A stretch of 64,000 nucleotides of DNA from Phanerodontia chrysosporium (lineage: Eukaryota > Basidiomycota > Agaricomycetes > Polyporales > Phanerochaetaceae): positions 1 through 64,000 of the forward strand of contig MJGA01000004.1 in assembly GCA_001910725.1 (NCBI GenBank). The letters are read 5' to 3'. Below the pieces are notes generated by a model. The model worked only from the letters and a program-made list of their open reading frames with translations. It was not told where the DNA came from and made no database searches. Positions within the stretch are counted from its first letter, which is position 1, and each line of letters opens with the position of its first letter. This document shows positions 1,626 through 39,658 of the stretch, one piece after another. The translations under genes and the position numbers were made by a program.

Positions 1626-2095
1626 TGTCACGGATGTGACGATGCTGCCCTATTTTTCGCCGATTTTTGGCTGTTTTCCTCGATTAATCCAACGGGCGAG
1701 CAGCCCTCGCGCCGTCTGGAGTCCTAGCCGCCCACGCTCAGCGCCTGGCCACGCAGCGCCAGCGCCCTGATGGCGCATCACCCCTAGACGCCAGCGCAAT
1801 CCCGCCGCGCGCTCAGACACTGCCCGGATCACCGGTCTGCCTTGCAACCGGTTCCCCAGATCGCCGAGGAGGCACCGTCATCCCTGATGACTCCCCTCGC
1901 CGAGACACGCCGAGCTGATCAGCCTGATGACACAGCCTCGGCCCGACGCAGCCTCGAGACACTGCCAGCTGACACAGCCTTGTGACATAGCCCCCGCACA
2001 GCCTCGCCGCGCAGCCCGCGTCACAGCCTCGCTGGCTATGCCAAGCACTGCCCATCAGCTTAGGTAATCGTACAGCCTGCCCTAGAGTACTGTAG

Positions 2096-2130
2096 TATAT
2101 AAGGGTAGCTCCCCTCGCTCCTGTCCGTCA
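2096..2130 (+). promoter_or_regulatory. TATA box and predicted RNA start, element A
   Basis: TATATAAG starts at 2096. The A at 2130, 34 nt downstream, begins ATCTCGACCT, which is exactly complementary to the PBS at 2323-2332. The spacing from the TATA box supports 2130 as the RNA 5' end, and the complementarity supports it independently. Confidence 0.65.
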
Positions 2131-2157
2131 TCTCGACCTCTTGGTCAATACGGACAG

Positions 2158-2216
2158 GTAAGCCTCAGTTTGTATAGTAGCATAGCATACTAATGTATCT
2201 TGGTCAATACGGACAG
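2158..2216 (+). other. intron-like segment inside the LTR
   Basis: GTAAGC donor at 2158, TACTAAT branch motif at 2190-2196 and ACAG acceptor ending at 2216, 59 nt in all. The last 18 nt of the segment repeat the 18 nt immediately before it (CTTGGTCAATACGGACAG). It contains the only ATG between the predicted RNA start and gag. Splicing is inferred from the sites alone. Confidence 0.5.
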
Positions 2217-2322
2217 CTGCACAAGTTGCTCGTCGCTGCGTGATTCGCTCCGCCGCGCCATCTCGTCGACCTCCCCATCTGTGCTCCCTCGTGTAGCGTT
2301 GAGCCCCTTGCTCCGCGACATT

Positions 2323-2332
2323 AGGTCGAGAT
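2323..2332 (+). other. primer-binding site, self-priming type, element A
   Basis: AGGTCGAGAT lies 2 nt inside the 5' LTR edge and is perfectly complementary to RNA positions 1-10 if transcription starts at 2130. The match stops on both sides. Tf1 of fission yeast and related chromoviruses prime reverse transcription from the 5' end of their own RNA in this way. I see no convincing tRNA 3'-end complement here. Confidence 0.65.
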
Positions 2333-2414
2333 CTCTTGGGTGCCCTAGGCAATTCCTTCCCTACCGCTCCCCCAAAACCCGTTTAAAAAAGTTTATCCCC
2401 TCCGTTTAAAGCGA

Positions 2415-2475
2415 GTACGTCGTAGTCGAGCAGCCTGCTCACTCCGTGCACGTTGCTAAGGTCCTTACCTCACAG
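2415..2475 (+). other. predicted leader intron that creates the ORF0 start codon
   Basis: Donor GTACGT at 2415, acceptor CACAG ending at 2475, 61 nt. The exon before it ends in GCGA and the exon after it starts TGCCGAAA, so joining gives ATG-CCG-AAA in the ORF0 frame. A CTAAG at 2456-2460 is an imperfect branch motif. Element B shows the same design. Confidence 0.55.
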
Positions 2476-3164
2476 TGCCGAAAGACGTCCGGCTCAAGGA
2501 CCACATCCCCCAACGCATCTTCGACCGCCTCCAACGTCGTCGCGAGGCCGGTAACCCCGTCAAGTGGACGGACCGCAAAGTCAAGGCGGTCGTCAAGTAC
2601 GTGTCCACGCTCCCCCAGCCTCCACCCTCCGTCCCCTCCATCAACTGGACCGCCGTTCGCGAGGCTCGTGAGGCCGAACAACGCGTAGGCAACCGCATCC
2701 GCGAGCAGCGCCAACGAGAGGCACAAGAAGCCCAGGCCGCCGTAGCCGCCTCCTCCTCGAAGCTCAGTTTGGCAGAGCGCCTCAGCGCCGCCCCGACGTA
2801 CGAGCCCATCGCCCGCAAGCCCATCGGTATCGACATCCCGAAGTACTCCCCCACCGACCTCGTCGGCATCTTCACGCCCAAGCTCGACGCAACCATCAAG
2901 CGTCTCAAGGCCGTCGAGGAAGTCGACTTATTCCACCTCGTCGACAGCGATCGTGCGCGCGGGGTTTGCCAGCTGCTCGAACGTCTTCAGCAGATCCGCA
3001 ACGAGCTCAGCCGCCTCGCCCCCACAACCACGTTTAAGGAGTGGCACCAGTACGAGCTAGGACTTGCTCAGATCGGTGACATTTCGTTTATCGGTTTAAG
3101 GCGCAACTTCCGCCGCATCGTGGGAGAATTAGACATTGTGTACCGGGCTGGGTATTTCGATTAA
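2476..3164 (+). CDS. ORF0 of element A (protein of unknown function)
   Basis: An open frame of 229 codons between the PBS and gag, with no internal methionine and no upstream ATG. It becomes translatable as Met-Pro-Lys if the intron 2415-2475 is removed. The protein is basic and glutamine/arginine-rich in its first half (an alpha-helical stretch around residues 60-90), with a proline-rich linker around residues 47-55. The C-terminal 100 residues share a pattern with ORF0 of element B: ER-[FL]-x2-IR-x2-L, then T-x2-EW, then G-x2-SF-x2-L-x3-F. No enzyme motif is visible. Position and the lack of ATG suggest an accessory protein made only from spliced RNA. I do not recognise a family; the function is unknown. 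Confidence 0.65.
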
Positions 3165-3589
3165 ATAAATATATCTTCTGTCGCTCTGGATTTCGACTGT
3201 TCGAACTGTCCGCACTTCTTCGGGCGAACCACAGAAAACGGCGTCACTCTTCCCGCCGATCTCCACGTCGAGGAAAACAACGGGTCTCGAGAAGCCAGGG
3301 AGTGCAGTCAGCAGCCCTGCCCCTATCGAGAGACTGCCCCTCCGCTACTCCCGGTTGCGCCTAGCGACCGAGAAACACAGTTCGAACGCCCTCATTTCAC
3401 GCAACGGCTAGAATTCGCCCGCGCCTCTGCCACTACTCCGAATACTCCCGATCACAGTCCCCGGACAGCAGCCACCACTCGTCTCCCGAGACATCGCTCG
3501 GCTCCGTCCTCTCCGACCACGAACCCGCCCCCTCGCCGTTTAATCTCTCCCGCGCTCAATCAGGAGCCAACACTCCCCGTCCCCCCAAT
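3165..3589 (+). other. ATG-free spacer between ORF0 and gag
   Basis: 425 nt with no ATG in any sense frame. The gag frame is open back to 3365 without an ATG, and its translation is Ser/Pro-rich, so Gag could have an N-terminal extension by non-AUG initiation or another splice. I see no direct evidence for that. Confidence 0.5.
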
Positions 3590-4840
3590 ATGTCGAGCAC
3601 TCCCGGTGGAGCGCCGCCCGGTCCGGCGCCTCCCGACCCCGTTTCTGCTGCCCTCCTGCAAATGGCCCAGGCGATGACGCAGCTTACAAACACGGTTAAC
3701 ACTCTGGCCCAGACTATTGGCGCCAATCGGACAACGGTCAACGCAACGGTCAATGCCAACAAGGAGCTCCCCTTCGTCGAGAAGCCCATGCCGTTCAAAG
3801 GAAAGGGTTCAGACACGGCCCGACTCTTCCGCGCCGCCTATCGCATCTACGCCGACGGACAGCCAGAGAAATTCGGCAAACGCGACGTCAACGGTAATCT
3901 CGAGCGGGACGCAAACACCGGCAAGATCTTGGTAGACGGCCAGAAGTGGATCGTCGGCGCTCTCTCCTTCATGCAGGATGAAGCGGCGGAATGGGCGCGT
4001 CAGTACATCGAACAGGCAGCAGACGGCACTCAGTTGTTCGGAGGTTCCCGCACCCAATTCTGGGAGGCCTTCAAGAACCGGTTCGAGCCCGTCGACGAGA
4101 AGGCCGAGGCCCTCAGCAAGCTACAGGCGTGCACGCAAGGCAATCGTCGGTTCGCGGAGTTCTTTGCGGAGTTCCAAGCCCTCGCCGGCCGCACGAAGCT
4201 CACCCCGGAAGACCTGGCAACCCGGCTACGGACGAAGTTTAATAAGGACTACCTCGAACGGATATCGTACATGGTCAACCCCGCCACCGGCAAAGGCCCC
4301 GAGACGTACGACGAGCTCAAGAACGCGGGTTTCGCCGTCGACCGGTCGAAGGACAAGCTCTCGCAAGACCTCCTGGCACAACAAGGCAAGACGTCCTCGA
4401 CTCCGGCTAGCTCGTCGACGCGCGCCTTCCGCGACCCGAACGCGATGGACATCGACGCCGCCAACATCGACGAGCTGTTTAAGGGTCTCACCGGCGCGGA
4501 TCTCAAGCGCCAGTTCGACGCCGTCATGAAGGACCGCTGCAAGGTCTGCGGCTCGAAGTCCCACAAGTCCACGGACCCCGTGCACCGTGACTCGGTTTGC
4601 AACCACTGCGGCAAGAAGGGTCACTGGTCCCGCGTCTGTCGTGCCCGCCTCGAGGGCAAGCCGAGAACCGCCCCCGCTACCGCCGCTGTCCGCGCCTCGT
4701 CTTCGGATACCTCGTCACAGGACTCCTCGTCTCCGGCCTCCTCGTCTTCTGGCAGCTCGTCTGACGACCAAGCTGCTGCGATCGCCGCCCTCCGTGATCA
4801 GCTGGCTCTGATACAAAAGCAGCTCGGGGGTTTTGCTTAA
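3590..4840 (+). CDS. gag: Gag (capsid-nucleocapsid) of element A
   Basis: 416 residues; the ATG at 3590 is the first ATG of the spliced leader. Residues 1-60 are Pro/Thr-rich, followed by a retrotransposon-Gag capsid-type region (about 65-260, with the conserved stretch around FWEAFKNRFEP). The short motif DPNAMDID follows, then a Cys/His region: a partial knuckle CKVCGSKSH and a full CCHC knuckle CNHCGKKGHWSRVC near residues 324-357. The C-terminus is Ser-rich. Gag packages the RNA and builds the particle. The stop TAA at 4838-4840 is preceded by the slippery heptamer GGGTTTT, which would send some ribosomes into pol. Confidence 0.9.
   Translation: MSSTPGGAPPGPAPPDPVSAALLQMAQAMTQLTNTVNTLAQTIGANRTTVNATVNANKELPFVEKPMPFKGKGSDTARLFRAAYRIYADGQPEKFGKRDVNGNLERDANTGKILVDGQKWIVGALSFMQDEAAEWARQYIEQAADGTQLFGGSRTQFWEAFKNRFEPVDEKAEALSKLQACTQGNRRFAEFFAEFQALAGRTKLTPEDLATRLRTKFNKDYLERISYMVNPATGKGPETYDELKNAGFAVDRSKDKLSQDLLAQQGKTSSTPASSSTRAFRDPNAMDIDAANIDELFKGLTGADLKRQFDAVMKDRCKVCGSKSHKSTDPVHRDSVCNHCGKKGHWSRVCRARLEGKPRTAPATAAVRASSSDTSSQDSSSPASSSSGSSSDDQAAAIAALRDQLALIQKQLGGFA
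4828..4834 (+). promoter_or_regulatory. candidate -1 frameshift site, gag-pol of element A
   Basis: G-GGT-TTT in the gag frame fits the X-XXY-YYZ rule and is followed one codon later by the gag stop. The pol frame is exactly -1 and is open from 4798. GGGTTTA, one base different, is the shift site of the yeast L-A virus. Confidence 0.65.
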
Positions 4841-7006
4841 GGGGCCGGAGTGACGCCGCATCGTCGGTCCCCGTCTCGTCAAGCCCGGATTCAACTCCGG
4901 CGCCTTCGTTAGAACCACAGGACATTTCGGACTCTATCCGCTCGTGTACAATATCCGTACTAGACCCTTTCTCGAATCACTATCGTGTACCAGTAAAGCT
5001 CACCGGGATCAATAAAACTATTCGCACGCCTGCAATGATTGACTCCGGTGCGACTTCACTGTTCATCCACGAGGACTTCTGCAAGCAGCATAAGATTCTC
5101 ACGATACCACTCAAAAGGGAAATTACGCTATACAACATCGACGGAACCAAGAACGAAGCAGGGTCTATCACGCGCCGTGCCAGACTCCAGCTCACTGTGG
5201 GTTCTTACACGTTTAAGGAGGAGTTTCTTGTCACGAACATCGGTCCAGAGGACGTCATCCTCGGACTTCCGTGGCTCAAGAAATGGAATCCGAACATCAA
5301 CTGGGAAACGGGAGATGTCCAGTTTCAGCTCCGCGGCGGAGCTGAGGACACCCCGGTTTTTGGTATCCATCAGATTGACGCCAATCGCTCCGAACGCCGA
5401 GAATGGCTTCGAGCAGGCATTGTTGAGGACGCCAAGGACGAAGTCTGGATCCTCGCCGGCTACACTTACTCGCAAGCGATCGCTGTCGAAGCCAATCGCG
5501 AGAAGTACGCCAAGACGTTCGAAGAGCTGGTTCCCAAAGAGTACCACCGACACAAGAAGGTGTTCTCTGAAGAGGAATCACACCGCCTTCCGAAGCATCA
5601 GCCCTGGGATCACGCGATAGATCTCGTCCCGGACGCCCCGGCCTCGATCAAATCGAAGGTTTATCCCATGTCCCCGATCGAGAATGAAGAACTACAGCGG
5701 TTCATCGACGACGCACTCGCCAAGGGCTATATCGTCCCCAGCAAGTCTCCGATCGCTTCCCCTGTCTTCTTTATCAAGAAAAAGGACGGCAAGCTCCGGT
5801 TCATTCAGGATTACCGCAAGCTCAACGACATCACTGTGAAGAATCGCTATCCCCTTCCGCTCGCCTCCGACATCATCGGGAAGCTCCAGGGCGCTAAGAT
5901 CTTCACCAAGTTCGACGTCCGTTGGGGCTACAACAACGTCCGGATTAAGGAAGGTGACGAGTGGAAAGCCGCCTTCGTCACCAACCGCGGTCTCTTCGAG
6001 CCCAGAGTCATGTACTTCGGTCTGTGCAACAGCCCTGCCACGTTCCAGGCCCTCATGAACCACATCTTCGCCGACCTCATCGCTGAGAGCAAGGTCGCAG
6101 TTTACCTCGACGACATTCTCATCTGGTCGAACGATCTCGCTTCGCATCGGAAGATAGTTCACGAGGTACTGGCACGCCTCGCCAAATACGATCTGTACCT
6201 TCGGCCCGAGAAGTGCGAGTTCGAGCGCTCAGAGATCGAGTATCTCGGGCTCCTCATCAGCGAGGGACAAGTCGGCATGGACCCCGGCAAGGTTAAGGCA
6301 GTAGCCGAGTGGCCGACCCCGAAGAACCTCAAAGATGTACGAGGCTTTGTCGGGTTCGCCAACTTCTATCGCCGTTTCATCAAGGACTTCTCAAAGATCT
6401 GCCGCCCGCTGCACGATCTGACGAAGAAGGATACTCCGTTTAATTGGGGTCCCGCACAGGCGGAAGCCTTCGAGACGCTCAAGCGCGCTTTCACAACTCA
6501 GCCCGTGCTCGCCATGTGGAGCATTGATCGGCCGACTCGCGTCGAGACCGATGCTTCTGGCTACGCCACCGGAGGAGTCATAGCCCAACGCAACCCTGAA
6601 GATGGTCTCTGGCATCCGATCGCGTATCGCTCGCAAACCATGAGCCCCGCCGAGCGGAACTACGAGATCTGGGACCGTGAGATGCTTGCAATCATCGAAG
6701 CTCTCAAGGACTGGCGCCAGTTCCTCGAAGGTCTCCCGGAGCCTTTCGAGATCTGGACCGATCATCAGAATCTCCAGTATTGGAAGACTGCGCAGAATCT
6801 CACGCGGCGACAAGCCCGGTGGGCCTCCTACCTCGCCGAGTACGACTTCCGCATCATTCACCGCCCCGGCAAGACCCATCTCCTCGCCGACCCGCTCTCC
6901 CGGCCCTCCTCGCTGCACGTCTCGGACGAAGAAGACAACCGCTCACAAGTGGTGCTGAAGCCTGAGCTGTTTAAGATAGCCGCCACGGCAGCCTTCGCAA
7001 ACCCCT
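4834..7006 (+). CDS. pol: Pol part 1: protease, reverse transcriptase, RNase H (element A)
   Basis: Read by -1 frameshift from gag, in the frame that contains the first in-frame ATG at 5035. Aspartic protease: IDSGATS near 5038. Reverse transcriptase: KKKDGKLRFIQDYRKLN near 5785, and the catalytic YLDD at 6103-6114 (residue 357 counted from the 5035 ATG). RNase H: VETDASGYATGG near 6541 and TDHQNLQYW near 6758. The reading is typical Ty3/gypsy up to about 7000, where a C-rich run (7001-7012) breaks the frame. The integrase continues in frame 3, as if one base were missing. The frame-1 continuation to 7479 is not homologous sequence. The break may be a real inactivating mutation or a homopolymer base-call error. 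Confidence 0.9.
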
Positions 7007-8591
7007 CCCCCTCGAGAAGCGCATTCGCGACTGCTCCGAAAAGGAAAAGGAAGTCGCAGACGCCCTGCAGACTCTCCGGACCAAGGGGCCTCGCAAGCTG
7101 CGCAACGGCGTCCTCGAATGGGAAGAGGACAACGGCCTCCTGTACTACCATGGGAAGGTTTATGTCCCGAACAGTGCCGCGCTGCGCAACGACGTCATCA
7201 AGTCTTGCCACGACGCGCCGACTGCCGGACACCCTGGGAAACACACCACCCTCGAATTGGTCTCCCGGTACTATTGGTGGCCGCGCATCTCTGCCGATGT
7301 TAGCCGCTACGTGCTCGGCTGTGATCAATGTCAACGGTACAAGTCCGCCCCGCATCCGAAAGCCACTCTACAGCCCCACGATGTCCCTTCAGGGCCCTGG
7401 GAACACGTCGGCGTGGATCTCATCACACAGCTCCCGCGTGACGCCAAGACTAAGAAGGACTCGATCGCGGTCTACGTAGACCACTACTCGGATCAGTGCC
7501 ACCTTGTCCCGGTCGACTCGACGATCACCGCGGCCGGCATGGGCGACGTCCACTACACGGACATCTTCCGCCTCCACGGCCTCCCGCGCAAGATCTTCTC
7601 CGATCGCGGACCCCAGTTTGCAGCACAGTACATGCGAGCGCTGTACAAGCGCCTCGGCATCGCTACTGGTCTCACCACGGCATATCATCCAGAAGGCAAC
7701 GGCAAGGTCGAGCGCAAGAACCAGGAAGTTGAGAAGTTTCTGCGTCTCTTCGTCTCCCAGCGCCAAGACGACTGGGTCGATTGGCTCCCGATGGCTGAGT
7801 TTACCCTGAACTCACACGTGTCCAGTGCTACCGAGCGCACGCCCTTCGAGATTGTTTACGGCTACACACCGGACTTCACGATCCCGGCCGGCAAACACAC
7901 CAACGTTCCCGCTCTCGACGAGCGCCTAGACCGCATGGCTCACGTCCGCAAAGAGGCCGAAGCTGCCCTGCGCCTAACCAAAGCCCGCATGAAAGAAGAG
8001 TACGAGGCCGCGAAGAAACGCGCCCACTCCTTCAAGGTCGGCGATCAGGTTTGGCTCAGCACGAAGGACCTCAGCATCGACCAGCCCTCGCCCAAGCTCG
8101 GCCCCCGCCAGCTGGGTCCGTTTAAGGTTCTGGAAAAGATCGGCGATCTGGACTATCGGCTCGAGCTCCCGAGCTGGCTGAAAATCCACCCGGTTTTCCA
8201 TGTCAACCGCCTCAGCCCGTGGCACGATCAGGGCGTTGAGAAGCCCCTGCCGCCCAAACCTGTCAAGGTTGCCGGCGAAGAGGAATACGTCGTCGAGAAA
8301 GTCCTCGACAGCCGCATATACCGCCGACAACTGCAATACAAGGTCCGCTGGAAAGGCTACGGTCAAGCCGGCGACACGTGGGAAAAGGCAGACAACCTCA
8401 AACACGCCAAAGCTCTGGTCAACAAATTCCATCGCGAAAATCCGGAAGCGCCCCGCAAGCTCGCTGCCACCGCCTTCGAAGCCCTCGCTGCCTCTTTTCG
8501 CCCGTTCGTCACCGAAGTCGACGTCTCCCACCTTTCTGCCTCTGATCGCGCCAAGGCCGATCTCGATTGGGAGGAGGGGCGTCACCTCTAA
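7007..8591 (+). CDS. pol: Pol part 2: integrase and chromodomain (element A)
   Basis: Continues part 1 in frame 3. HHCC zinc domain: HDAPTAGHPG near 7210 and CDQCQ near 7322. Catalytic DDE core: D in VDLITQ (about 7415), SDRGPQF (about 7600) and E in GNGKVERKNQ (about 7700). The integrase tail (GPFKVLEKIG, HPVFHVNRLSP) follows. A chromodomain EEYVVEKVLDSR to RWKGYGQAGDTWE lies at about 8280-8460 and would direct integration to marked chromatin, which defines the element as a chromovirus. The stop codon at 8589-8591 precedes the polypurine tract by 25 nt. Without repair of the break at about 7001-7012 this part cannot be made as a fusion with reverse transcriptase. Confidence 0.9.
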
Positions 8592-8629: not shown

Positions 8630-9324
8630 TGTCACGGATGTGACGATGCTGCCCTATTTTTCGCCGATTTTTGGCTGTTTTCCTCGATTAATCCAACGGG
8701 CGAGCAGCCCTCGCGCCGTCTGGAGTCCTAGCCGCCCACGCTCAGCGCCTGGCCACGCAGCGCCAGCGCCCTGATGGCGCATCACCCCTAGACGCCAGCG
8801 CAATCCCGCCGCGCGCTCAGACACTGCCCGGATCACCGGTCTGCCTTGCAACCGGTTCCCCAGATCGCCGAGGAGGCACCGTCATCCCTGATGACTCCCC
8901 TCGCCGAGACACGCCGAGCTGATCAGCCTGATGACACAGCCTCGGCCCGACGCAGCCTCGAGACACTGCCAGCTGACACAGCCTTGTGACATAGCCCCCG
9001 CACAGCCTCGCCGCGCAGCCCGCGTCACAGCCTCGCTGGCTATGCCAAGCACTGCCCATCAGCTTAGGTAATCGTACAGCCTGCCCTAGAGTACTGTAGT
9101 ATATAAGGGTAGCTCCCCTCGCTCCTGTCCGTCATCTCGACCTCTTGGTCAATACGGACAGGTAAGCCTCAGTTTGTATAGTAGCATAGCATACTAATGT
9201 ATCTTGGTCAATACGGACAGCTGCACAAGTTGCTCGTCGCTGCGTGATTCGCTCCGCCGCGCCATCTCGTCGACCTCCCCATCTGTGCTCCCTCGTGTAG
9301 CGTTGAGCCCCTTGCTCCGCGACA
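8630..9324 (+). repeat. 3' LTR of element A
   Basis: 695 bp, identical by eye to 1626-2320 at a constant offset of 7,004. Confidence 0.95.
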
Positions 9325-9329
9325 AAGAA
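9325..9329. repeat. target-site duplication, element A, right
   Basis: AAGAA, matching 1621-1625. Confidence 0.95.
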
Positions 9330-9449: not shown

Positions 9450-9710
9450 TATCACAAAAATGCGCTGCCCTAGCGCCTATACACCAAACCAACCAGCAAT
9501 ACTCACTGGCAAAGGTTTACTTGGACTACAAAGGGTGTAGCCAGGCTTGAAGACGAGGTATAGAGGCTAGAGAGGTGAGATGCGATGAGATTGAAGCTGG
9601 GGAGGCACCCCCAGCCCTCAGGGTTTATATACATGTGTACCAGGTCCCCAGGGACCGGTGTTCAGGGTCCTAGCTATCTAATACCTACTACGCTATTGGC
9701 TAGTGCCCTA

Positions 9711-9850
9711 CAGGCATTCCTACATTCTCCTACACGTTCCTAAATGTTCCTACGATGTCCCAGAAACCTCCAGAACGTTCCAGCACTGTCCGGACCTGTT
9801 CAGAGACCTCCAGGACTTTCTAGTCCATTCCGGAGTGTCTCGGCGCTTCC
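9711..9850 (-). repeat. 10-bp periodic degenerate array in U3 of element B
   Basis: About 14 successive decamers with a TTCC/CTCC/GTCC core recurring every 10 bases on the plus strand, e.g. ACGTTCCTAA, ATGTTCCTAC, AACGTTCCAG. The same array is at 17210-17349 in the other LTR. It lies upstream of the TATA box on the element's strand. One unit pair forms GAACGTTC, which matches a minimal heat-shock-element core. Confidence 0.7.
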
Positions 9851-9910
9851 AGACCCTTGCCTGCTTCTAGACCTTCGACCATGTGACCCTGGGATACCGC
9901 ACGTGTGCGC

Positions 9911-9936
9911 ATCACGTGACCGCCGTATCACGTGAC
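9911..9936 (-). promoter_or_regulatory. paired TCACGTGA E-boxes in U3 of element B
   Basis: ATCACGTGAC occurs at 9911-9920 and again at 9927-9936, and in the other LTR at 17410-17419 and 17426-17435. The palindrome TCACGTGA is the usual site of Cbf1-type bHLH factors. Binding is inference. Confidence 0.5.
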
Positions 9937-10013
9937 CAGCCCCGAGCCTAGGGCTGTCACTCCAGCGCTTCTGCATGTCACAGTTCGGAGTAATCGCTTC
10001 TGTCACCTGCTGC

Positions 10014-10025
10014 CCCTAACCCTAA
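10014..10025 (-). repeat. two telomere-type repeats in the LTR
   Basis: CCCTAACCCTAA on the plus strand, TTAGGG twice on the element's strand, 25 bp inside the LTR end. The other LTR has it at 17513-17524. Confidence 0.6.
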
Positions 10026-10049
10026 GGGTTAAGACGAAAAACTGTGACA

Positions 10050-10062
10050 TTACCCCCAATTC
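10050..10062 (-). other. polypurine tract, element B
   Basis: AATTGGGGGTAA on the minus strand directly before the 3' LTR; the last eight bases plus TGTCAC equal those of element A. Confidence 0.8.
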
Positions 10063-10084
10063 TGGCTGAACCTCCTGGTGAAGC

Positions 10085-13000
10085 CTAAATACCAGTGGAG
10101 CCAAAACCATCGCTGCTGCGAATGGTTGAGTCGAGGCGAGAAACCGGAGTTGGTTCGGCGTAGGAGATTCTTTCGAGCACGAGTTGAGCAACACGATCAC
10201 CCTTGTGGAATGTAAAGGTGTCGGGCGAGTTGTTGATGAGTAGAATTTTGAGCTCTCCTCGATAATCTCGGTCAATAACGCCTGCTCCTATGTCGATGCC
10301 TCTGAGGCTAAGGCCGCTCCGTGGTGCGACTCGAGCGTAGGTACCTGGTGGAGTACACATTCGAAGGCCAGTTGGCGCTAGCTTGCGATCATGGGGCTTG
10401 AGCGTAAGGTCTTCCGTGATGAAAAGATCCAACCCTGCGCTTTCTGGCGAGCCACGTGAGGGAAGTTTTGCATCCTTGTTCATGAGCTCGACTTCGAACT
10501 GGTCGTCTGCTCCCCAAGATTGGAGTAGCGCGAGTTCGCGCACGAAAAACTCATCCTCCTCGTCGTGGTGGCGTTGCAGAAGGGAAATTGCCTTTGGCGC
10601 ATCTGGGTATTTCTTGTGGAATTGTTTGACCTTCGCCATAGCGTGCTTGAGATTGGGCAAGTATTCCCATGTGTCGCTATGCTCATCGTAGCCTCTCCAC
10701 CGTACTCGGTACATAACACGGCCTTTAGAGTCTGGCTGTGCATCTACGATCTGCTCGACCTCGTACTCCTCGTCATCACCCACACGAATGGGTGGTAGGG
10801 GTTTGCGCGTGCGATTGGCAACCTCATCCTCGACGTGCTTCGTGAGCTTGCTTGCGTGGAAGACCGGGTGAACCTTCACATGGGCTGGTAACTTCAGCTT
10901 GAAGGTGACCGGTCCCAGCTGCTCTACGATCTCGTAAGGGCCTACTCGCTTTGGTGCCAGTTTCTTGGAGGGAACCCGAAGGTTCAGATCCTTTGCGTCA
11001 AGCCAAACACGGTCTCCGACCTTGAACAAGGGTTCTGATTTACCCTGGTCGTAGTACCACTTCATTCGCTCTGCAGCCAGCATGAGCGCGGCTTTCGCCT
11101 GATCTTGGGCCTCCTGTCTAAGCTTCGTCCAGTCGTCCAGTTCTGACAACCTTGTAACACGGTCCTGCTCTGGGAACATGCGTGGATGACGGCCATATTC
11201 GACGAAGAATGGCGAGTTCTTGGTGCTTTCATGCGCCTGGTTGTTGTACGCAAACTCGGCAGAGGGCAAAAGGTACGCCCAGTCGTCCTGCCTGAAGCTT
11301 GTGTAGCAGCGCAGATATTGCTCCAATGACTGATTAACTCGCTCAGTCTGACCGTCTGCCTGAGGGTGAAACGCTGTAGTCATTGCTGACTTGATCCCCA
11401 GGAGTCTGCACCATTCCTGGAAGAGTTTCGCGGCGAACTGCGTTCCTCTATCCGAAATGATCTGTCTGGGTAGGCCGTGCAAAGGCCAAACACGCTCATA
11501 GAGCAAATTTCCCAGATCCTTGGCTGAAAACTCCTTGGTGATGGGGAGGAAATGTGCTCGCTTGGTTAAGCGGCAAACGACTACGAAGATAGCGTTGTAA
11601 CCGTCCGACTCAGGCAAGTCCGTGATCATATCGCATGAGATTATCTCCCAGGGTTCCGACGGAACCTCGTTCGGTTGTAGCAGGCCAGCAGGCTTCTGGT
11701 TGACGTTTTTATGCGACTGGCAGACTTCGCAGCCTGCGACGTACTTCTTGACGTAAACCGACATTCCTGGCCACCAGTAGTTGCGCGACAGCAACTCCAA
11801 CGTCTTCCATCGTCCAGGGTGTCCAGCCCCAGGGAAGTCGTGGTGTAACTTGAGTAGATCCGCCCTAATCTTGTCGTCCTTGGGCACATACACCTTGCCT
11901 CGGTGCAGTAGTAGCCCGTCCTCGAGGTGCCATTCCGCTAAGTCCTTCCCGAACTCTCTTGGTCCTTTCAACATCAGGTCTTTGTACGACTTGGTGACTT
12001 CGTCGTCCAGCAGGGCTTTTCTGATCCTTTCTAGCAGTTTGCTATCGTCCACTATCGATGAATGGGTTGGTTGCATGGCTCGAATCGCGAAATATTCTGG
12101 CTTCAAAAGGACTTTTTCACGATTGTCGCAATCCACCCCCAATTCATGATCTGGCCTCCTGGACATTGGATCAGCCCGCTTCATCGTCTTTCCAGGCTTG
12201 TGCTCCAACTTGAAGTGGAAACGTGTGAGGAAAAGACTCCAACGTGCTTGGCGTCGCGTCAAGTCTTGCGCCTTGCGGAAATAGGTCAAATTCTGGTGAT
12301 CTGACCATATGTCGAATGGTAGAGGGTGTCCCTCCAAGTGGTGGCGCCATTCCTTCAATGCGCGGATGATGGCTAGCATCTCCTTGTCGTATATCTCGTA
12401 GTTGCGCTCATGTACGCCTAGCGCCTTGGAGTAAAACGCGACAGGGTGCCAAAGGCCATCCTCGCCCAGTTGCTCAAGTACAGCCCCCGTAGCAAAGTCT
12501 GACGAATCGCATTCGAGCCTAAAAGGGTGCTCGTCGTCTGGAATCTTGAGAATAGGCGCAGTAGTGAACGCTCTTTTGAGTGTATCGAAGGCATCCTGCT
12601 GCTCAGGCCCCCATTCCCACTCTTTGCCTTTGCGGGTAAGCTCTGACAATGGGCGAACAATCTTGCCAAAGTCTCGAATAAACCGTCGGTAGAAGTTAGC
12701 AAAACCCAGGAAAGCCTGGACATCTTTGACCCTTTTGGGTATGGGCCAAGATAAAACGCCATCTACCTTCGATGGATCCATCTGAACCGACCCCTTGCTG
12801 ATGATCATTCCGAGGTATTCAATGCTATCCGTCTCGAAGAAGCATTTTTCTGGCTTAGCGAACAGGTCATTGTCGCGTAGCCGCTGCAATACCTCGCGAA
12901 CTAATCGCCGATGGTGGTCCAAGTCATTCGTGAAGATGAGAATGTCGTCTAGGTAGACCATGACATGCCCTTCTCGAATCAGATCGTCGAGAATATGGTT

Positions 13001-14236
13001 CATCATGCGCTGAAAGGTTGCTGGTGCATTGCTGAGGCCGAAGAACATCACTGTAGGTTCGTATAAACCGAAAGGTGTGATGAAGGCCAGCTTCCACTCG
13101 TCTCCTTCCTTGATTCTGACGTTGTTATACCCCCATCTAAGGTCAATCTTGGTGTATATACTAGCCTTAGATAGTCGATCTATAAGGTCTGAGATCTTGG
13201 GTATCGGGAAGCGGTCTTTCTTAACGACTTCGTTCAGCTTTCTGTAGTCCTGCACCAAGCGCAATGAACCGTCCTTCTTCTTCACGAAAAAGACTGGTGC
13301 TGCCAGCGGGGATTTACTCGGTCTGATGTATCCCTTGGCGAGATTCTCCTGAATCCACTCGTCCAGAGAATTCCTCTCTTCTGGCGACAGCGAGTAATTA
13401 CGAGCTGGTCGAGGTAGGGTAGCTCCGTCGATAAACTCGACAGCGTGGTCGTAAGGCTTTCGTACGGGTAACCGTTCGCTTGCACGCTTCGAAAATACGT
13501 CCCCATAGTCTTGATACTGTGCAGGGACAAGCTGCTCCCAGCCCTCGATTCCCTCCAGCGAACGAATACTGCACATCGCTGCGATCTTCCGGCAAGTTAA
13601 TGCCAAAACGCGGCCATCTGGGGTGGAAGGGTCGACCCACTGGAGCCAAGGCTCCTCTTCTTCCTCCTCGAAGTCCTCATCCATAGGTTCTTCGAGCTCT
13701 GCTTGCGCTACTTGAGCCTTGTGGCTGGTAAAGCGACAAGAATCTGGGCATCTGGAGTACTTCCACTCGCCCTTATCCCAATCTATCTCGGGATTATGCT
13801 TCTTCAAGTAGCTAAAGCCGAGGAACATGTCCTTTCCACCCAGATCTGTAATGAGGCATGCTTGTCTGGAGACATGGTCCCCTACGGCTACGTCGAGCCA
13901 AGCGTACTCCTCAATACTGCCACACTTGTTCCTGGAGCCATCTGCGTTGTAAACGCGTATCTCCCTGGCCAGCTGGTTCGTCTTCAGCTTATGCTTCTTG
14001 ACGAAGCGATGGCTAATGAACACAGCATAGGCCCCTGAATCAACCAGCGCGGTAGTCTGCACTCTGATTTCCTTACCCTGACTCAAAGTTACTGGAACGA
14101 TAAAGCTCGATTTAGAGGGTAAACTAGAGACTTTTCTCGATTCCAAAACTGATCTAATACATTCTACTGAGTCGGGAGGGTAAAGGAAATCTAAAAACGG
14201 ACCAGATGTCGCAGACTCTACATCGGTCCCTGCAGA
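10085..14236 (-). CDS. pol: Pol of element B: protease, RT, RNase H, integrase, chromodomain, dUTPase
   Basis: One uninterrupted frame, entered by -1 shift near 14236 (no ATG is needed; a TTG at 14146 is the first start-like codon). Protease: ALVDSGAYAVF near 14040. RT: FVKKKDGSLRLVQDYRKLN near 13290 and the catalytic YLDD at 12955-12944. RNase H: ECDSSDFATG near 12515 and SDHQNLTYF near 12300. Integrase: HHCC (GAGHPG, CEVCQ), then D, SDRGTQF and E of ADGQTERVNQ (about 11360). Chromodomain: EEYEVEQIVDA to RWRGYDEHSDTWE at about 10770-10640. The last 150 residues form a dUTPase with all five motifs: SAGLDLF, APRSGLS, GVIDRDYRGE, GDRVAQLVLE and the Gly-rich SSDGFGSTG near the end. dUTPase hydrolyses dUTP and would limit uracil in the cDNA. 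Everything appears intact. Confidence 0.95.
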   Translation of the reverse strand, partial: SAGTDVESATSGPFLDFLYPPDSVECIRSVLESRKVSSLPSKSSFIVPVTLSQGKEIRVQTTALVDSGAYAVFISHRFVKKHKLKTNQLAREIRVYNADGSRNKCGSIEEYAWLDVAVGDHVSRQACLITDLGGKDMFLGFSYLKKHNPEIDWDKGEWKYSRCPDSCRFTSHKAQVAQAELEEPMDEDFEEEEEEPWLQWVDPSTPDGRVLALTCRKIAAMCSIRSLEGIEGWEQLVPAQYQDYGDVFSKRASERLPVRKPYDHAVEFIDGATLPRPARNYSLSPEERNSLDEWIQENLAKGYIRPSKSPLAAPVFFVKKKDGSLRLVQDYRKLNEVVKKDRFPIPKISDLIDRLSKASIYTKIDLRWGYNNVRIKEGDEWKLAFITPFGLYEPTVMFFGLSNAPATFQRMMNHILDDLIREGHVMVYLDDILIFTNDLDHHRRLVREVLQRLRDNDLFAKPEKCFFETDSIEYLGMIISKGSVQMDPSKVDGVLSWPIPKRVKDVQAFLGFANFYRRFIRDFGKIVRPLSELTRKGKEWEWGPEQQDAFDTLKRAFTTAPILKIPDDEHPFRLECDSSDFATGAVLEQLGEDGLWHPVAFYSKALGVHERNYEIYDKEMLAIIRALKEWRHHLEGHPLPFDIWSDHQNLTYFRKAQDLTRRQARWSLFLTRFHFKLEHKPGKTMKRADPMSRRPDHELGVDCDNREKVLLKPEYFAIRAMQPTHSSIVDDSKLLERIRKALLDDEVTKSYKDLMLKGPREFGKDLAEWHLEDGLLLHRGKVYVPKDDKIRADLLKLHHDFPGAGHPGRWKTLELLSRNYWWPGMSVYVKKYVAGCEVCQSHKNVNQKPAGLLQPNEVPSEPWEIISCDMITDLPESDGYNAIFVVVCRLTKRAHFLPITKEFSAKDLGNLLYERVWPLHGLPRQIISDRGTQFAAKLFQEWCRLLGIKSAMTTAFHPQADGQTERVNQSLEQYLRCYTSFRQDDWAYLLPSAEFAYNNQAHESTKNSPFFVEYGRHPRMFPEQDRVTRLSELDDWTKLRQEAQDQAKAALMLAAERMKWYYDQGKSEPLFKVGDRVWLDAKDLNLRVPSKKLAPKRVGPYEIVEQLGPVTFKLKLPAHVKVHPVFHASKLTKHVEDEVANRTRKPLPPIRVGDDEEYEVEQIVDAQPDSKGRVMYRVRWRGYDEHSDTWEYLPNLKHAMAKVKQFHKKYPDAPKAISLLQRHHDEEDEFFVRELALLQSWGADDQFEVELMNKDAKLPSRGSPESAGLDLFITEDLTLKPHDRKLAPTGLRMCTPPGTYARVAPRSGLSLRGIDIGAGVIDRDYRGELKILLINNSPDTFTFHKGDRVAQLVLERISYAEPTPVSRLDSTIRSSDGFGSTGI

Positions 14237-15797
14237 AAATCCTCATCGTCTGAGAATACCACGCGGTTAATCTTCTGCGCCTTCTCCTTCGAAGACGACT
14301 TCTTCTTGTGCTTGGTCTTGGGGTATCTTCTTCTTCTGAGCTATCTGAGCTCGATTCCTCGTCAGAGGCTACCTCCTGGAATCTCTCCGAGTCACTGGCG
14401 TACACCTCGCGCACGCTGTTCTTCGTGTGGCGAGAGCCCTTATCCTTCTCCTTTCCCTTTGAAGGCGAAGCCTTTGACGAACTGGCCACCGGTGCATTGG
14501 TGGTTTTACTCGACGACGTCGAAGAACCTGAGTTGTTCTTCTTCGATGGACACTCCTTGGCGATGTGGCCTTTGCCTCCACACTGAGCGCAGCAGCCTTT
14601 CTTCTTCGCCTCCTCGAACGACATGGCAACCTTCTGAACTTTGGCTGTCTTGCCTTTACCCTGGGCTGAGCCCTTCTTCAAGGCGTCGACATCCATAGCG
14701 TCAGGGTCTTTCGACGACTGAGGCTGTCCAGAGAGTACGGTGCCCGTCAAGAGACGTTGATCCTGCAGAATCTCCTGAACATCCTTCAACCAACCATCCC
14801 AGGTCGTAGCCCACTGAGCACGACCACGGGCTGCCAGTACATCGGCGGCGGCACGAGGGGTATGGGCATAGGCTTTGACCAACAGTTCCTCGTTGGAGAA
14901 GCCAGTTTGGCGAGCCAGCGAACGGAAACGAGCAGCAAACTCATTGAAAGTCTTCTCGTTCGTTCCTTTCTTGCTGACAAGCTGCTCAAACTCTGCCCTT
15001 GCCCTGTCCTTCTTGTCGGTCTGTTGGAATCCTTTCTGGAGTTCGTTCACAAAGTTGGTCCAAGTACCAAGGGGCTTTGAGTCTGCCACCTTGTCGAAGT
15101 ACTCTTGCATGACCTTCTTTGCTGAACCTCGCAGGTAAGTCATCGCCGTCTCTATCTTCTTTTCGTCGTCCATTACGCCACGGTGGCGCAACCAGAGTGC
15201 CATCGACTCGAGCCAGTCATCCAGCTTGCTAGCCTTATCACCATTAAAGGTGTCAGGCTCCTTCATGGTAGGGAACAAAGACTGAGACAACCCAATGTTG
15301 CCTCCACTAGTGCCTTGCTGAACCAACACTTTCAAGCTCTCGTTCTCCTGCTTCAGCACCTGCATAGCGTTCTGCAAAACGCGATTTTGGTTCTGAGCCT
15401 CTGCTATCTGCGCAGACAAGTGCTGTCTAGTCTGCTCAAGAGTGTCTATCTGCTCCTGAAGTGTCTTGGCCTCGGTTTTGCGTTTGCGAAGGGCTTCCTT
15501 CAAGCGAAGGACTTCTGAACCCATTTCCGACCTTACTTGAGCTATCTCAGCCTTTACCCAGTTACCCAGGCTGTCAACGAGGGCCTTGAAGTCGCCAGGA
15601 GTCAGTCCTTCCTGAGCGGCTTGTACCCATGACTGGCTGTACTCTTCGTAAGAGGTCGAAAGCGGCGCAGCGGCCAAAACTGGGGTAGGGCCTCCCTCAG
15701 CCATAGAGCCGAGTTCTAACGCTCCCCAAGGGTCCGTACCACTTGAACTCGCAGCAGAACGCAAACCAAAGTCAACAGGATTTGGATTGAGCGACAT
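14154..15797 (-). CDS. gag: Gag of element B
   Basis: 547 residues as read; the ATG at 15797 is the first ATG after the predicted RNA start. A long coiled coil (about residues 85-160, heptads rich in L, Q, E) precedes the capsid region (about 175-340). The motif KDPDAMDVD follows, then one CCHC knuckle, CAQCGGKGHIAKEC, near residue 407. From a CCCC run at 14320-14323 the frame becomes Arg-rich and unlike a Gag tail, while the -1 frame reads a Lys/Ser-rich tail with VVFSDDEDF and stops at TAG. I think one base is missing in that run, by mutation or base-calling. Gag builds the particle and binds RNA. Confidence 0.85.
   Translation of the reverse strand: MSLNPNPVDFGLRSAASSSGTDPWGALELGSMAEGGPTPVLAAAPLSTSYEEYSQSWVQAAQEGLTPGDFKALVDSLGNWVKAEIAQVRSEMGSEVLRLKEALRKRKTEAKTLQEQIDTLEQTRQHLSAQIAEAQNQNRVLQNAMQVLKQENESLKVLVQQGTSGGNIGLSQSLFPTMKEPDTFNGDKASKLDDWLESMALWLRHRGVMDDEKKIETAMTYLRGSAKKVMQEYFDKVADSKPLGTWTNFVNELQKGFQQTDKKDRARAEFEQLVSKKGTNEKTFNEFAARFRSLARQTGFSNEELLVKAYAHTPRAAADVLAARGRAQWATTWDGWLKDVQEILQDQRLLTGTVLSGQPQSSKDPDAMDVDALKKGSAQGKGKTAKVQKVAMSFEEAKKKGCCAQCGGKGHIAKECPSKKNNSGSSTSSSKTTNAPVASSSKASPSKGKEKDKGSRHTKNSVREVYASDSERFQEVASDEESSSDSSEEEDTPRPSTRRSRLRRRRRRRLTAWYSQTMRIFCRDRCRVCDIWSVFRFPLPSRLSRMY
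14236..14242 (-). promoter_or_regulatory. candidate -1 frameshift site, gag-pol of element B
   Basis: GGATTTT on the minus strand, in phase G-GAT-TTT if the suspected missing base at 14320-14323 is allowed for. The pol frame is then exactly -1. GGATTTA, one base different, is the pro-pol shift site of mouse mammary tumour virus. Confidence 0.45.
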
Positions 15798-15826
15798 CTT
15801 GATTCAAAAACGCGCAGATACAAAAA

Positions 15827-16557
15827 CTAATCGAGGTTCTTCTCCAAAAACAACCAATCTTCACCCAACTCCTGAATCAGCTCCCTGCAATGCTCAGCGA
15901 AGCGTGGCTTAAGCTCAGCGAAGCTATGTGCGCCTGCCTTCTTCAAATCCCTCGAAATCTTCTTCCACTCCCTCGTGGTGTACTCCTTCGTCTCGACGAT
16001 GGTCTGAAGGTGTTTGCGAATGTTGTCGAACCTCTCCTTGAACAAGCCCAAGGTGTAGAGCTCGTGTTCAGTCAACCCAACTCGAAAACGCTGCTCGTCT
16101 AGCTTCTGAAAGAACGGACCCAAGTGGTTAAGGGCGCCGTTGAACTTTCGTCCGTAGTCGCGCAGCTGATGGACCTGAGTGTTGGTGTGAAAGCGAAGGT
16201 CTTTGGGAATGGGTTTGACTTCGATAGGGGGAGTAGGGGGAGGTTCAATACGTTCGATGAGGGGTAGAGGGGGAGGGGCGTTCGCGATGCGATCGAGTAG
16301 GCGGCGCTTGCGCTGTTCGTTGCGATAGTCTTCGAGCTGAAGCTGGTGCTTGAAGTCGTTCAAGTCTGCTTCACGAGCAAGCCTTTCACGACGACCAGGG
16401 ACAGGGGTGTAGGGTGTAGTGCGAGGTTTGTACGCAGGGCGCGGCTTCCCAACGTCTTTGAAGCGGTGAAGGTTCGAGATCTTGATGCGCTCAAGCAAGG
16501 GTTTGCCAGAGCTCTCGTCCTTAGCAAGGACAAAACGGTTCCTAGCAGCTTTAGGCA
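15827..16557 (-). CDS. ORF0 of element B (protein of unknown function)
   Basis: Open for 270 codons from 16639 with no ATG anywhere. The only in-frame AG|TG acceptor near its start is at 16558, after which the frame reads TG-CCT-AAA. Joined to an exon ending in A it gives Met-Pro-Lys, as in element A, and a 243-residue product. Residues are basic and Arg/Lys-rich, with a proline-rich linker (PPPLPLIE, PPPTPP) in the middle and a helical C-terminal half. That half holds ER-F-x2-IR-x2-L, T-x2-EW and G-x2-SF-x2-L-x3-F, the same pattern as ORF0 of element A. It ends 29 nt before gag. The function is unknown; the shared design in two families argues for a selected accessory role. Confidence 0.65.
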
Positions 16558-16745
16558 CTAGTAAACACAGGTCAGCCTGTGTACACAAGCCAGAAAACTT
16601 CTCCACACAGGCAAAGCGCAAGGCTTTCCTGCCAGCCAACCCTCAACGAAGAGAAAGGGGTATTACTGCGGGTTTCCACGCCACGCAGCTAAAACTGGTT
16701 GGACAGGGTATTACACCCTTAGTCCAGCACTACAACAGGGGTTAC
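16558..16745 (-). other. predicted leader intron creating the ORF0 start, element B
   Basis: Acceptor TTTACTAG ends at 16558, with a CTGAC branch motif 14 nt before it. The donor is less certain. GTAACC at 16745 follows CGA, as the donor of element A does, and gives CG-ATG-CC. Weaker A|GT donors at 16812 and 16666 would also create the ATG. The strongest donor in the leader, GTAAGT at 16828, follows C and would not. Confidence 0.45.
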
Positions 16746-16935
16746 TCGTCCGCAGGCAAAGCCCTCTGAGGTGGGTTACACCACGTTCCCCTGTCTGTAC
16801 CTAAAAAGGTACTATAGTGCCCACTTACGCCTGTGGATCGGCAGAAAACTGAACAAAGCGCAAAAGCACTTGTTCAAACAAGCCCCCAGAACCCAAAGCA
16901 ATAACCTAGGCCACCAAAGGTGGAGTAGGTTGGCT

Positions 16936-16946
16936 AGCTTCAATCT
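16936..16946 (-). other. primer-binding site, self-priming type, element B
   Basis: AGATTGAAGCT on the minus strand, 2 nt inside the 5' LTR, is the perfect complement of AGCTTCAATCT at 17097-17087, the predicted first 11 nt of the RNA. Tf1 also uses 11 nt. Confidence 0.7.
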
Positions 16947-16948
16947 TC

Positions 16949-17548
16949 TATCACAAAAATGCGCTGCCCTAGCGCCTATACACCAAACCAACCAGCAATA
17001 CTCACTGGCAAAGGTTTACTTGGACTACAAAGGGTGTAGCCAGGCTTGAAGACGAGGTATAGAGGCTAGAGAGGTGAGATGCGATGAGATTGAAGCTGGG
17101 GAGGCACCCCCAGCCCTCAGGGTTTATATACATGTGTACCAGGTCCCCAGGGACCGGTGTTCAGGGTCCTAGCTATCTAATACCTACTACGCTATTGGCT
17201 AGTGCCCTACAGGCATTCCTACATTCTCCTACACGTTCCTAAATGTTCCTACGATGTCCCAGAAACCTCCAGAACGTTCCAGCACTGTCCGGACCTGTTC
17301 AGAGACCTCCAGGACTTTCTAGTCCATTCCGGAGTGTCTCGGCGCTTCCAGACCCTTGCCTGCTTCTAGACCTTCGACCATGTGACCCTGGGATACCGCA
17401 CGTGTGCGCATCACGTGACCGCCGTATCACGTGACCAGCCCCGAGCCTAGGGCTGTCACTCCAGCGCTTCTGCATGTCACAGTTCGGAGTAATCGCTTCT
17501 GTCACCTGCTGCCCCTAACCCTAAGGGTTAAGACGAAAAACTGTGACA
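16949..17548 (-). repeat. 5' LTR of element B
   Basis: 600 bp, same sequence by eye as 9450-10049. Holds the promoter, the decamer array, the E-box pair and the telomere-type repeats. Confidence 0.95.
17097..17130 (-). promoter_or_regulatory. TATA box and predicted RNA start, element B
   Basis: TATATAAA reads leftward from 17130. The A at 17097 is 33 nt downstream and begins the 11-nt sequence complementary to the PBS. Confidence 0.65.
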
Positions 17549-17553
17549 TGCGG
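17549..17553. repeat. target-site duplication, element B, right
   Basis: TGCGG, matching 9445-9449. Confidence 0.95.
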
Positions 17554-34975: not shown

Positions 34976-35243
34976 TCTTGAAGAATCGAGCGGGGGTGAG
35001 ATGCGGGAAACGAACGATAGATATTCGGAGAGATATAACTAGGATTTTATACATTTTCGTGTAACTACTAGAAAGGAAATGAAATGTGGGTTTTGAGTTA
35101 TTACAAAGGCGGAAGACTCAGATAAGATAAAGTGGATCGGAATGAAGATAAGGAAATGGAGATTACTACCGACGGGTGCCTTTTATGGCATGCCGCCCTG
35201 CGTCTGAGGTGGGTCACCTCGGCGGCGCCTCGGGATGACAACA
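34976..35243 (-). repeat. 3' LTR of the copia element
   Basis: 268 bp, identical by eye to 39391-39658. Confidence 0.95.
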
Positions 35244-35252
35244 CTCCCCCTC
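35244..35252 (-). other. polypurine tract, copia element
   Basis: GAGGGGGAG on the minus strand, directly before the 3' LTR and overlapping the pol stop codon TGA. Confidence 0.8.
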
Positions 35253-39249: not shown

Positions 39250-39374
39250 ACTGACAGGGCGATAATCGCGAGATGTGGGCGCCTAGATTTGATCCGCAAT
39301 GGATCGACAGGGACGAGAGTTTGATCCGCACTGGATCTGCAGAGAGTGGTGATCGTCGTGTGCGCTCTTTACAG

Positions 39375-39390
39375 CGCGGGGCTCATAACC
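39375..39390 (-). other. primer-binding site like a half initiator-tRNA-Met
   Basis: On the minus strand GGTTATGAGCCCCGCG directly follows the 5' LTR. Its complement contains GGGGCTCATAACC, which reads like the anticodon arm (CAT) of initiator tRNA. Drosophila copia is primed by such an internally cleaved tRNA fragment. Tested by eye only. Confidence 0.6.
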
Positions 39391-39658
39391 TCTTGAAGAA
39401 TCGAGCGGGGGTGAGATGCGGGAAACGAACGATAGATATTCGGAGAGATATAACTAGGATTTTATACATTTTCGTGTAACTACTAGAAAGGAAATGAAAT
39501 GTGGGTTTTGAGTTATTACAAAGGCGGAAGACTCAGATAAGATAAAGTGGATCGGAATGAAGATAAGGAAATGGAGATTACTACCGACGGGTGCCTTTTA
39601 TGGCATGCCGCCCTGCGTCTGAGGTGGGTCACCTCGGCGGCGCCTCGGGATGACAACA
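39391..39658 (-). repeat. 5' LTR of the copia element
   Basis: 268 bp, identical by eye to 34976-35243. Confidence 0.95.

Follow-up and report, generated by a model that had tools for sequence, protein, structure and literature searches.

Predicted leader introns, a probable splice-made start codon and an ATG-free leader in a Ty3/Gypsy retrotransposon of Phanerodontia chrysosporium

Introduction

The RNA of a retroelement must act both as mRNA and as genome. Self-priming of reverse transcription by the 5' end of this RNA has been shown for Tf1 of fission yeast and proposed for Tcn1 of Cryptococcus (PMC7175516). In rice tungro bacilliform virus (RTBV, Caulimoviridae), leaky scanning extends over about 900 nt with AUG-free open reading frames (ORFs) and a non-AUG start, and a spliced RNA serves another protein (PMC5902531). 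Translation of the glyco-Gag gPr80 of murine leukemia virus (MLV) begins on unspliced RNA, at a CUG that precedes the gag AUG in the same frame (PMC3423011). The BARE element of barley has distinct RNA pools, one of them spliced, for translation and packaging (PMC3735527). For fungal Gypsy elements, an "additional ORF of unknown function" is named in PMC2864245 (legend of figure 3); one- or two-ORF elements are the majority there, and the section on them is silent on splicing. The present work concerns element A, a retrotransposon with long terminal repeats (LTRs) located in a 64,000-nucleotide stretch of the Phanerodontia chrysosporium genome (assembly GCA_001910725.1, contig MJGA01000004.1, positions 1 to 64,000 of the forward strand), hereafter the window. 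It carries a separate ORF, called ORF0, upstream of gag. A preliminary description, made from the sequence alone, had proposed that the start codon of ORF0 would be created by splicing, within a leader otherwise devoid of ATG. This proposal is examined below by comparison of the copies of the family. Element A and all its features are on the forward (+) strand.

Results

A start codon probably completed by removal of intron 2

Family copies were searched in 39.0 Mb of genome. Among the 70 loci gathered, four multi-hit loci (L028, L036, L062 and L067) were set aside and 11 duplicates were removed, some of these being distinct genomic places that share one leader. The alignment thus contains 55 unique leaders including the window copy, to which the other 54 have identities of 0.83 to 0.95. 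Ten extra loci were considered apart: L072-L075 are decayed or distant copies of element A, and L076-L081 are six copies of a second element, element B. The genome-wide searches refer to about 100 places among the matches listed; the leader of element A is present at about 130 genomic places.

The predicted intron 2 (2415..2475, 61 nt, GTACGT...CAG) has the donor A|GTACGT and the acceptor CACAG. Its removal, as had been proposed, joins 2414 to 2476 and gives AAAGCGA|TGCCGAAAG, i.e., ATG-CCG-AAA in the frame of ORF0. The start codon would therefore be built from A2414 and the TG at 2476-2477, and exon 2 of ORF0 (2476..3164), once spliced, would be read as MPKD..., with 229 amino acids including Met. 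A2414, the donor GTACGT and the acceptor CAG|TG are invariant in 55/55 copies. The base preceding A2414 differs in 3 copies, in which the ATG is intact. In dinucleotide shuffles of 2217-2489, an in-frame splice-made ATG is obtained in 79 of 20000 cases for introns of 45-500 nt, and in 38 of 20000 for introns of 45-120 nt.

In the whole genome, the donor pattern of intron 2 is found at 129 places and its acceptor at 130. The joined form was found at one place only, which has two mismatches, lacks an ATG at the junction and is taken as unrelated. LTRs without intron 1 (see below) exist, while copies without intron 2 were not found in the genome search. Donor and acceptor are kept in the set-aside copies L028, L062 and L067, and none of the four set-aside copies has an ATG between the donor and the gag ATG. 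The donor-acceptor pair is also kept in L072, L073 and L074; no recognisable pair is present in L075. L072, the sole one of these last four loci where the gag ATG was found too, has 2 ATGs between donor and gag.

By its pattern of substitutions, ORF0 is a protein under strong purifying selection. The median ratio of nonsynonymous to synonymous substitution rates (dN/dS) is 0.10 (1476 pairs, the five broken copies being kept), against 2.1 and 2.6 for the other two frames, and ORF0 is intact in 50/55 copies. A search of the genome with the ORF0 protein gives 152 matches; among the matches listed, at least 111 span 200 or more of the 228 residues, and at least 106 of these are stop-free. ORF0 is 36 nt longer in five of the 55 copies (2478 onward). 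Its relatives from outside have extra residues near the N-terminus, perhaps a subfamily mark. The start codon of ORF0 would probably arise only on spliced RNA.

A leader without ATG

On the sense strand between 2130, the predicted 5' end of the RNA, and 3592, only two ATGs are found, at 2193 and at 3590 (first ATG of gag), in agreement with the preliminary description. ORF0 lacks ATG in all frames and holds 12 CAT, each of them an ATG on the complement, where about a dozen had been announced. With a first-order Markov model, 2130-3589 contains 1 ATG for 7.6 expected and 19 CAT for 17.2 expected; the corresponding values for ORF0 alone are 0 for 2.9 (ATG) and 12 for 7.9 (CAT). In a single copy ORF0 is thus only mildly unusual, and the weight is carried by the comparison of the family.

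Outside intron 1 (i.e., 2130-3589 minus 2158-2216), 47/55 copies have no ATG at all. Related copies with ATGs scattered through ORF0 had been named as the observation that would speak against the proposal. The 55 copies do not contradict it: 13 ATGs are found outside intron 1, distributed in 8 copies and each private to one copy, so that no ATG column is shared. These private ATGs fit a decay after insertion. By comparison, there are 66 CAT columns outside intron 1, of which 45 are present in at least 2 of the 55 copies. Changes from the window letters which create an ATG occur in 11/7347 cells (11/137 sites), and the mirror-image changes which create a CAT in 223/9021 cells (35/168 sites); the one-sided Fisher test on the sites gives p 0.0013. 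Downstream of the gag ATG, 3590-4561 could be compared in the 37 of 55 copies with enough flank, and contains 23 shared ATG columns and 17 shared CAT columns: the boundary at 3590 is sharp. As shared ATGs are absent, outside intron 1, before this position and come back after it, selection appears to have purged ATGs from the leader as far as 3590 but not beyond.

A predicted intron 1 within the LTR

The ATG at 2193 had been placed inside an intron-like segment of the LTR, and it is indeed located within the predicted intron 1 (2158..2216, GTAAGC...CTAAT...ACAG). An 18-nt repeat, CTTGGTCAATACGGACAG, is found at the end of the exon that precedes this intron (copy 1, 2140..2157, directly after the self-primer described below) and again at the 3' end of the intron (copy 2, 2199..2216, 18/18 columns invariant). 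Both copies are identical to each other within 52/55 elements. Intron 1 starts with GTAAG in 54/55 copies and has the branch-like motif CTAAT in 51/55; within 2130-2324, variability is highest in the interior of this intron (mean minor fraction 0.26). It contains 29 ATGs in 27/55 copies, in 5 columns of which 2 are shared, and 23 of these ATGs are at 2193. It is the sole part of the leader with ATGs common to several copies. It appears thus that intron 1 is taken out of the translated RNA.

The donor of intron 1 is found at 361 genomic places (up to 2 mismatches). An LTR form without the intron gives 9 exact matches plus two matches with one mismatch, one of which reads as a changed donor. In the element at C2:164172/171114, both LTRs are intron-less. 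The pair C102:1154595/1168612 we take as one element with intron-less LTRs split by an insertion, since no LTR is present at the place expected for the 3' LTR and ORF0-B (the ORF0 of element B) lies between the two LTRs. Seven of the nine intron-less LTRs were examined and fall into five groups by their flanks. The nearest LTR with the intron is L018 for one group, L005 for two others and L070 for the remaining two, so that intron 1 was likely lost on at least three separate occasions.

A probable CTG start upstream of the gag ATG

Gag, read from its first ATG, extends from 3590 to 4840 and contains a capsid domain and a zinc knuckle. The preliminary description had placed the start of gag at this ATG, which is the first one of gag; the selected coding sequence begins about 400 nt earlier, at CTG 3186. 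Upstream of 3590, 49/55 copies keep the gag frame open as far as a stop located at 3077-3166; the 6 others are out of frame, including the window copy, whose extension is shifted with respect to the rest of gag by a one-base length difference near 3459. This base distinguishes 53/55 copies from the window copy, only L040 having the same length as the latter. In the 49 in-frame copies the N-terminal extension (3186..3589) has no stop, measures 399 or 405 nt (133 or 135 codons) and shows a dN/dS of 0.126 (1171 pairs; the 6 out-of-frame copies being left out). The CTG, with a G at both −3 and +4, is present in 55/55 copies and is the sole near-cognate codon of that frame common to all of them. 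A genome search with the CTG start gives 104 places at up to 1 mismatch, and no exact match with ATG at that position. It is thus probable that the gag coat protein starts at a CUG codon, so that the leader would serve a CUG start besides the AUG. In 49/55 copies the arrangement is that of the MLV glyco-Gag, with a putative near-cognate start of favourable context ahead of the gag AUG, in the same frame, and a coding extension under selection. By analogy we infer a long Gag started at the CUG and a short Gag started at the AUG; ribosomes passing the CUG are consistent with the avoidance of ATG in 3186-3589.

No homologue of the extension was found at E <= 0.001. Two other origins of the extended frame were rejected. 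Readthrough or a fixed frameshift from ORF0 into gag does not agree with the distance from the ORF0 stop to the CTG, which falls in all three frames among the copies. A splice acceptor for the extension does not agree with the 23/55 copies in which the interval from the ORF0 stop codon (included) to the CTG contains no AG; in 31 copies the lone AG is that of the TAG stop, and L051 has one more.

Element B

Element B (9450-17549, minus strand, LTRs of 601 bp) shows the same A|...|TG logic as element A with another donor. Its leader, from the predicted RNA start and self-primer at 17097 to the gag ATG at 15797 (15797..17097, minus strand), is 1300 nt long and contains no ATG for 9.2 expected, and 12 CAT. 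A predicted intron (16558..17005, minus strand) of the form A|GTGAGT...CTGAC...TAG|TGCC would, by its removal, join the A before the donor (17005) to the TG after the acceptor (16558) and complete the ATG of ORF0-B as GCCATGCC, in frame. Such a splice pair is obtained in 487 of 20000 shuffles for introns up to 600 nt. Exon 2 of ORF0-B (15827..16557, minus strand) is homologous to ORF0 of element A (hhalign probability 88, E 2.9e-6, with shallow alignments). Three relatives of ORF0-B were found, two starting with MP and one with VP. Among viral contigs, no relative of either ORF0 was confirmed. The many near-identical copies of ORF0-B in the genome suggest a recent burst. Two of the six B copies, L077 and L079, are decayed mostly by C-to-T and G-to-A changes, as in repeat-induced mutation. 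The C-terminal part of the pol ORF of element B resembles a dUTPase and may be one.

Architecture and class of element A

The 5' LTR (1626..2320) and the 3' LTR (8630..9324) are the same over 695 bp, with TG..CA ends, and are directly flanked by the 5-bp target duplication AAGAA (1621-1625 and 9325-9329). Identical LTRs and target duplication indicate a young insertion. Pol (4798..8591) is composed of protease, reverse transcriptase, RNase H, integrase and chromodomain, the Pfam matches being asp protease/RVP_2, RVT_1, RT_RNaseH, Integrase_H2C2, rve and Chromo (5.1e-14 for Chromo). Domain order, LTR ends and target duplication place element A among the Ty3/Gypsy LTR retrotransposons with a chromodomain (chromoviruses).

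A TATA-like box, TATATAAGG, at 2096..2104 may act in the promoter. The 10 nt at 2130..2139, ATCTCGACCT, are perfectly complementary to 2323..2332, AGGTCGAGAT, i.e., to the putative primer binding site just 3' of the 5' LTR; the first arm is invariant in 55/55 copies and the second in 54/55. This is the self-primer layout of the Tf1/sushi type, for an RNA with its predicted 5' end at 2130. Placing the RNA start near 2130, from this complementarity, is reasonable.

Gag and pol overlap at 4798-4840, pol being in the −1 frame, with an in-frame G-GGT-TTT heptamer at 4828. From this heptamer to the gag stop, the string is identical in 28/37 copies. The overlap looks like a −1 frameshift site. It must be added that pol of the window copy has a frame shift between RNase H and integrase (about 6975-7032).

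The window contains a third LTR element (34976-39658, minus strand), with identical end repeats of 268 bp and an ORF of 1343 codons which, by its motifs, we take to be Ty1/Copia-like.

Discussion

The preliminary description had assumed two mRNAs, the unspliced one for gag and the spliced one for ORF0. This reading is supported in part: it agrees with the avoidance of ATG, the selection on ORF0, the junction pieces found in 55/55 copies and element B. It has to be amended in that gag would start upstream, at the CTG, and in that an additional intron 1 is to be taken into account. The arrangement which we consider the most probable, with good though not full confidence, is a splice switch in which intron 1 is removed, and intron 2 is either kept for Gag (CUG and AUG starts) or removed for ORF0. 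One promoter would then give at least two kinds of mRNA, both devoid of intron 1 when translated. When intron 2 is kept, ribosomes would scan about 1 kb of leader without ATG, past an unread ORF0, up to gag; part of them would initiate at CUG 3186, giving a Gag extended at its N-terminus by 133 or 135 residues, and the remaining ones would reach AUG 3590 and make the shorter Gag and, probably by −1 frameshifting, Gag-Pol. The leader would be ATG-free because the ribosomes destined to Gag must scan through it. When intron 2 is removed, the A would be joined to the TG into the AUG that opens ORF0; this removal would be the switch from Gag RNA to ORF0 RNA. New copies would arise only from RNA that contains intron 2, presumably the packaged form. 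From sequence comparison we infer the RNA start, both splicing events, both gag start codons and packaging.

Several observations weigh against the splice switch. Within intron 2, 26/40 columns of 2421-2460 are also invariant; the conservation of the intron 2 signals alone was thus discarded as a proof of splicing, adjacent columns being conserved as well. The branch site of intron 2 is an imperfect match to the usual fungal consensus. The set-aside copy L036 has lost the junction ATG, and the family copies are not independent events. As for element B, the donor is present in 6/6 copies and TAG|TG in only 4/6 (lost in L079 and L080); leader ATGs are found in L077 (7), L079 (6) and L080 (2), the other three copies having none; and the six copies are too alike or too decayed for a test of conservation. 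The MPKD start of 7/7 relatives of the element A ORF0 fails to decide for an AUG, and was given no weight since GTG starts are likewise written M. Lastly, the AG|TG acceptor itself yields an in-frame GTG (2475), with a purine at −3, in 55/55 copies.

This last point leads to the main rival, i.e., a single RNA without any intron 2 switch, on which ORF0 would start at GUG 2475 or another non-AUG codon and gag would be reached by leaky scanning as in RTBV. A GUG start accounts equally well for an ATG-free ORF0, the codon is present wherever AG|TG is, always with its purine at −3, and the gag of element A itself apparently starts at a CUG; moreover RTBV has an AUU start, together with ORFs that contain no AUG inside (PMC5902531). 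However, GUG 2475 is followed by a C at +4 in 55/55 copies, and the invariant A|GTACGT located 61 nt upstream would be without reason, as would the A|GTGAGT of element B, which also completes an in-frame ATG. GUG is moreover a weak start codon in eukaryotes, and on balance we regard this explanation as unlikely. Much less likely is termination followed by reinitiation, in which ribosomes would end ORF0 and restart a few tens of nt further, at the CUG in element A or the AUG in element B. The start of gag is close after the ORF0 stop in both elements, but such a mode would make ATGs inside ORF0 harmless, and they are avoided in all frames and in 3186-3589 too. That the lack of ATG results from composition or codon use, with no translational meaning, is hardly credible: the region is C-rich, the window copy has no Met in ORF0 or in the gag extension and just 2.9 ATGs are expected in its ORF0, but CAT, the mirror control, is frequent, with 45 shared columns, ATGs are back from 3590 on, shared ATGs exist in intron 1 and the decayed B copies L077, L079 and L080 carry leader ATGs.

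Concerning intron 1, it could be supposed that it is not spliced and that the intron-less LTRs come from recombination or template slippage between the 18-nt repeats. Because the intron is flanked by this repeat, splicing and repeat deletion leave the same product, letter for letter. The confinement of shared ATGs to this segment argues for splicing, as do GTAAG in 54/55 and CTAAT in 51/55 copies, and so does the absence of the intron from both LTRs in two elements, which points to a loss before or during reverse transcription. An unspliced intron 1 is thus rather improbable.

The splice switch of element A may be part of a broader picture, which is put forward as speculative and on the doubtful side: a clade of fungal Ty3 elements would hide its start codons, the AUG of ORF0 existing only in spliced RNA, the first start of the Gag of element A being a CUG, and intron 1 of the LTR being restored at each round of reverse transcription. 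For this restoration, the strong-stop complementary DNA made from RNA spliced for intron 1 would end in the 18-nt repeat sequence, and could transfer to the second repeat in the 3' LTR, copying intron 1 back. If so, the repeat would explain how an element keeps an intron in its own LTR despite spliced RNA. With regard to the double task of retroelement RNA, the sequence points to a fungal solution in which the start of ORF0 arises by removal of an intron, and Gag is reached along a path free of start codons when this intron is kept. If true, genes of the ORF0 type and N-terminally extended Gags would escape ATG-based annotation and ordinary gene finders; conversely, start-codon depletion and split ATGs could be used for finding more such elements.

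In the open-access literature, consulted mostly as titles and abstract openings, no splice-made start codon of gag or of an ORF0 was found for a fungal retrotransposon; within similarly partial texts, the searches gave no account of an ORF0, leader introns, an ATG-free leader or a CTG-headed gag in fungal elements. As far as the accounts consulted go, element A resembles the sushi type of Tf1 and Tcn1, with which it shares a (predicted) RNA 5' end complementary to a site after the LTR and a Ty3/Gypsy pol; it differs from them by a separate ORF0 before gag, two predicted introns in the leader, the lack of ATG along this leader and a gag headed by CTG. With the fungal Gypsy elements of PMC2864245, to judge by the legend, element A shares the presence of an additional ORF. 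With RTBV, element A has in common a first ORF without internal AUGs in any frame; in the published description, however, RTBV splicing fuses an upstream ORF of the leader to a distal ORF, whereas in element A the junction itself would make the AUG and the product would be the first ORF. The likeness to MLV, as reported, lies in the arrangement of the starts; the extension of MLV has 88 residues versus 133 or 135, and the host of element A is a fungus. Finally, splicing in BARE, from what is described, favours Gag, while splicing in element A would favour ORF0 over Gag.

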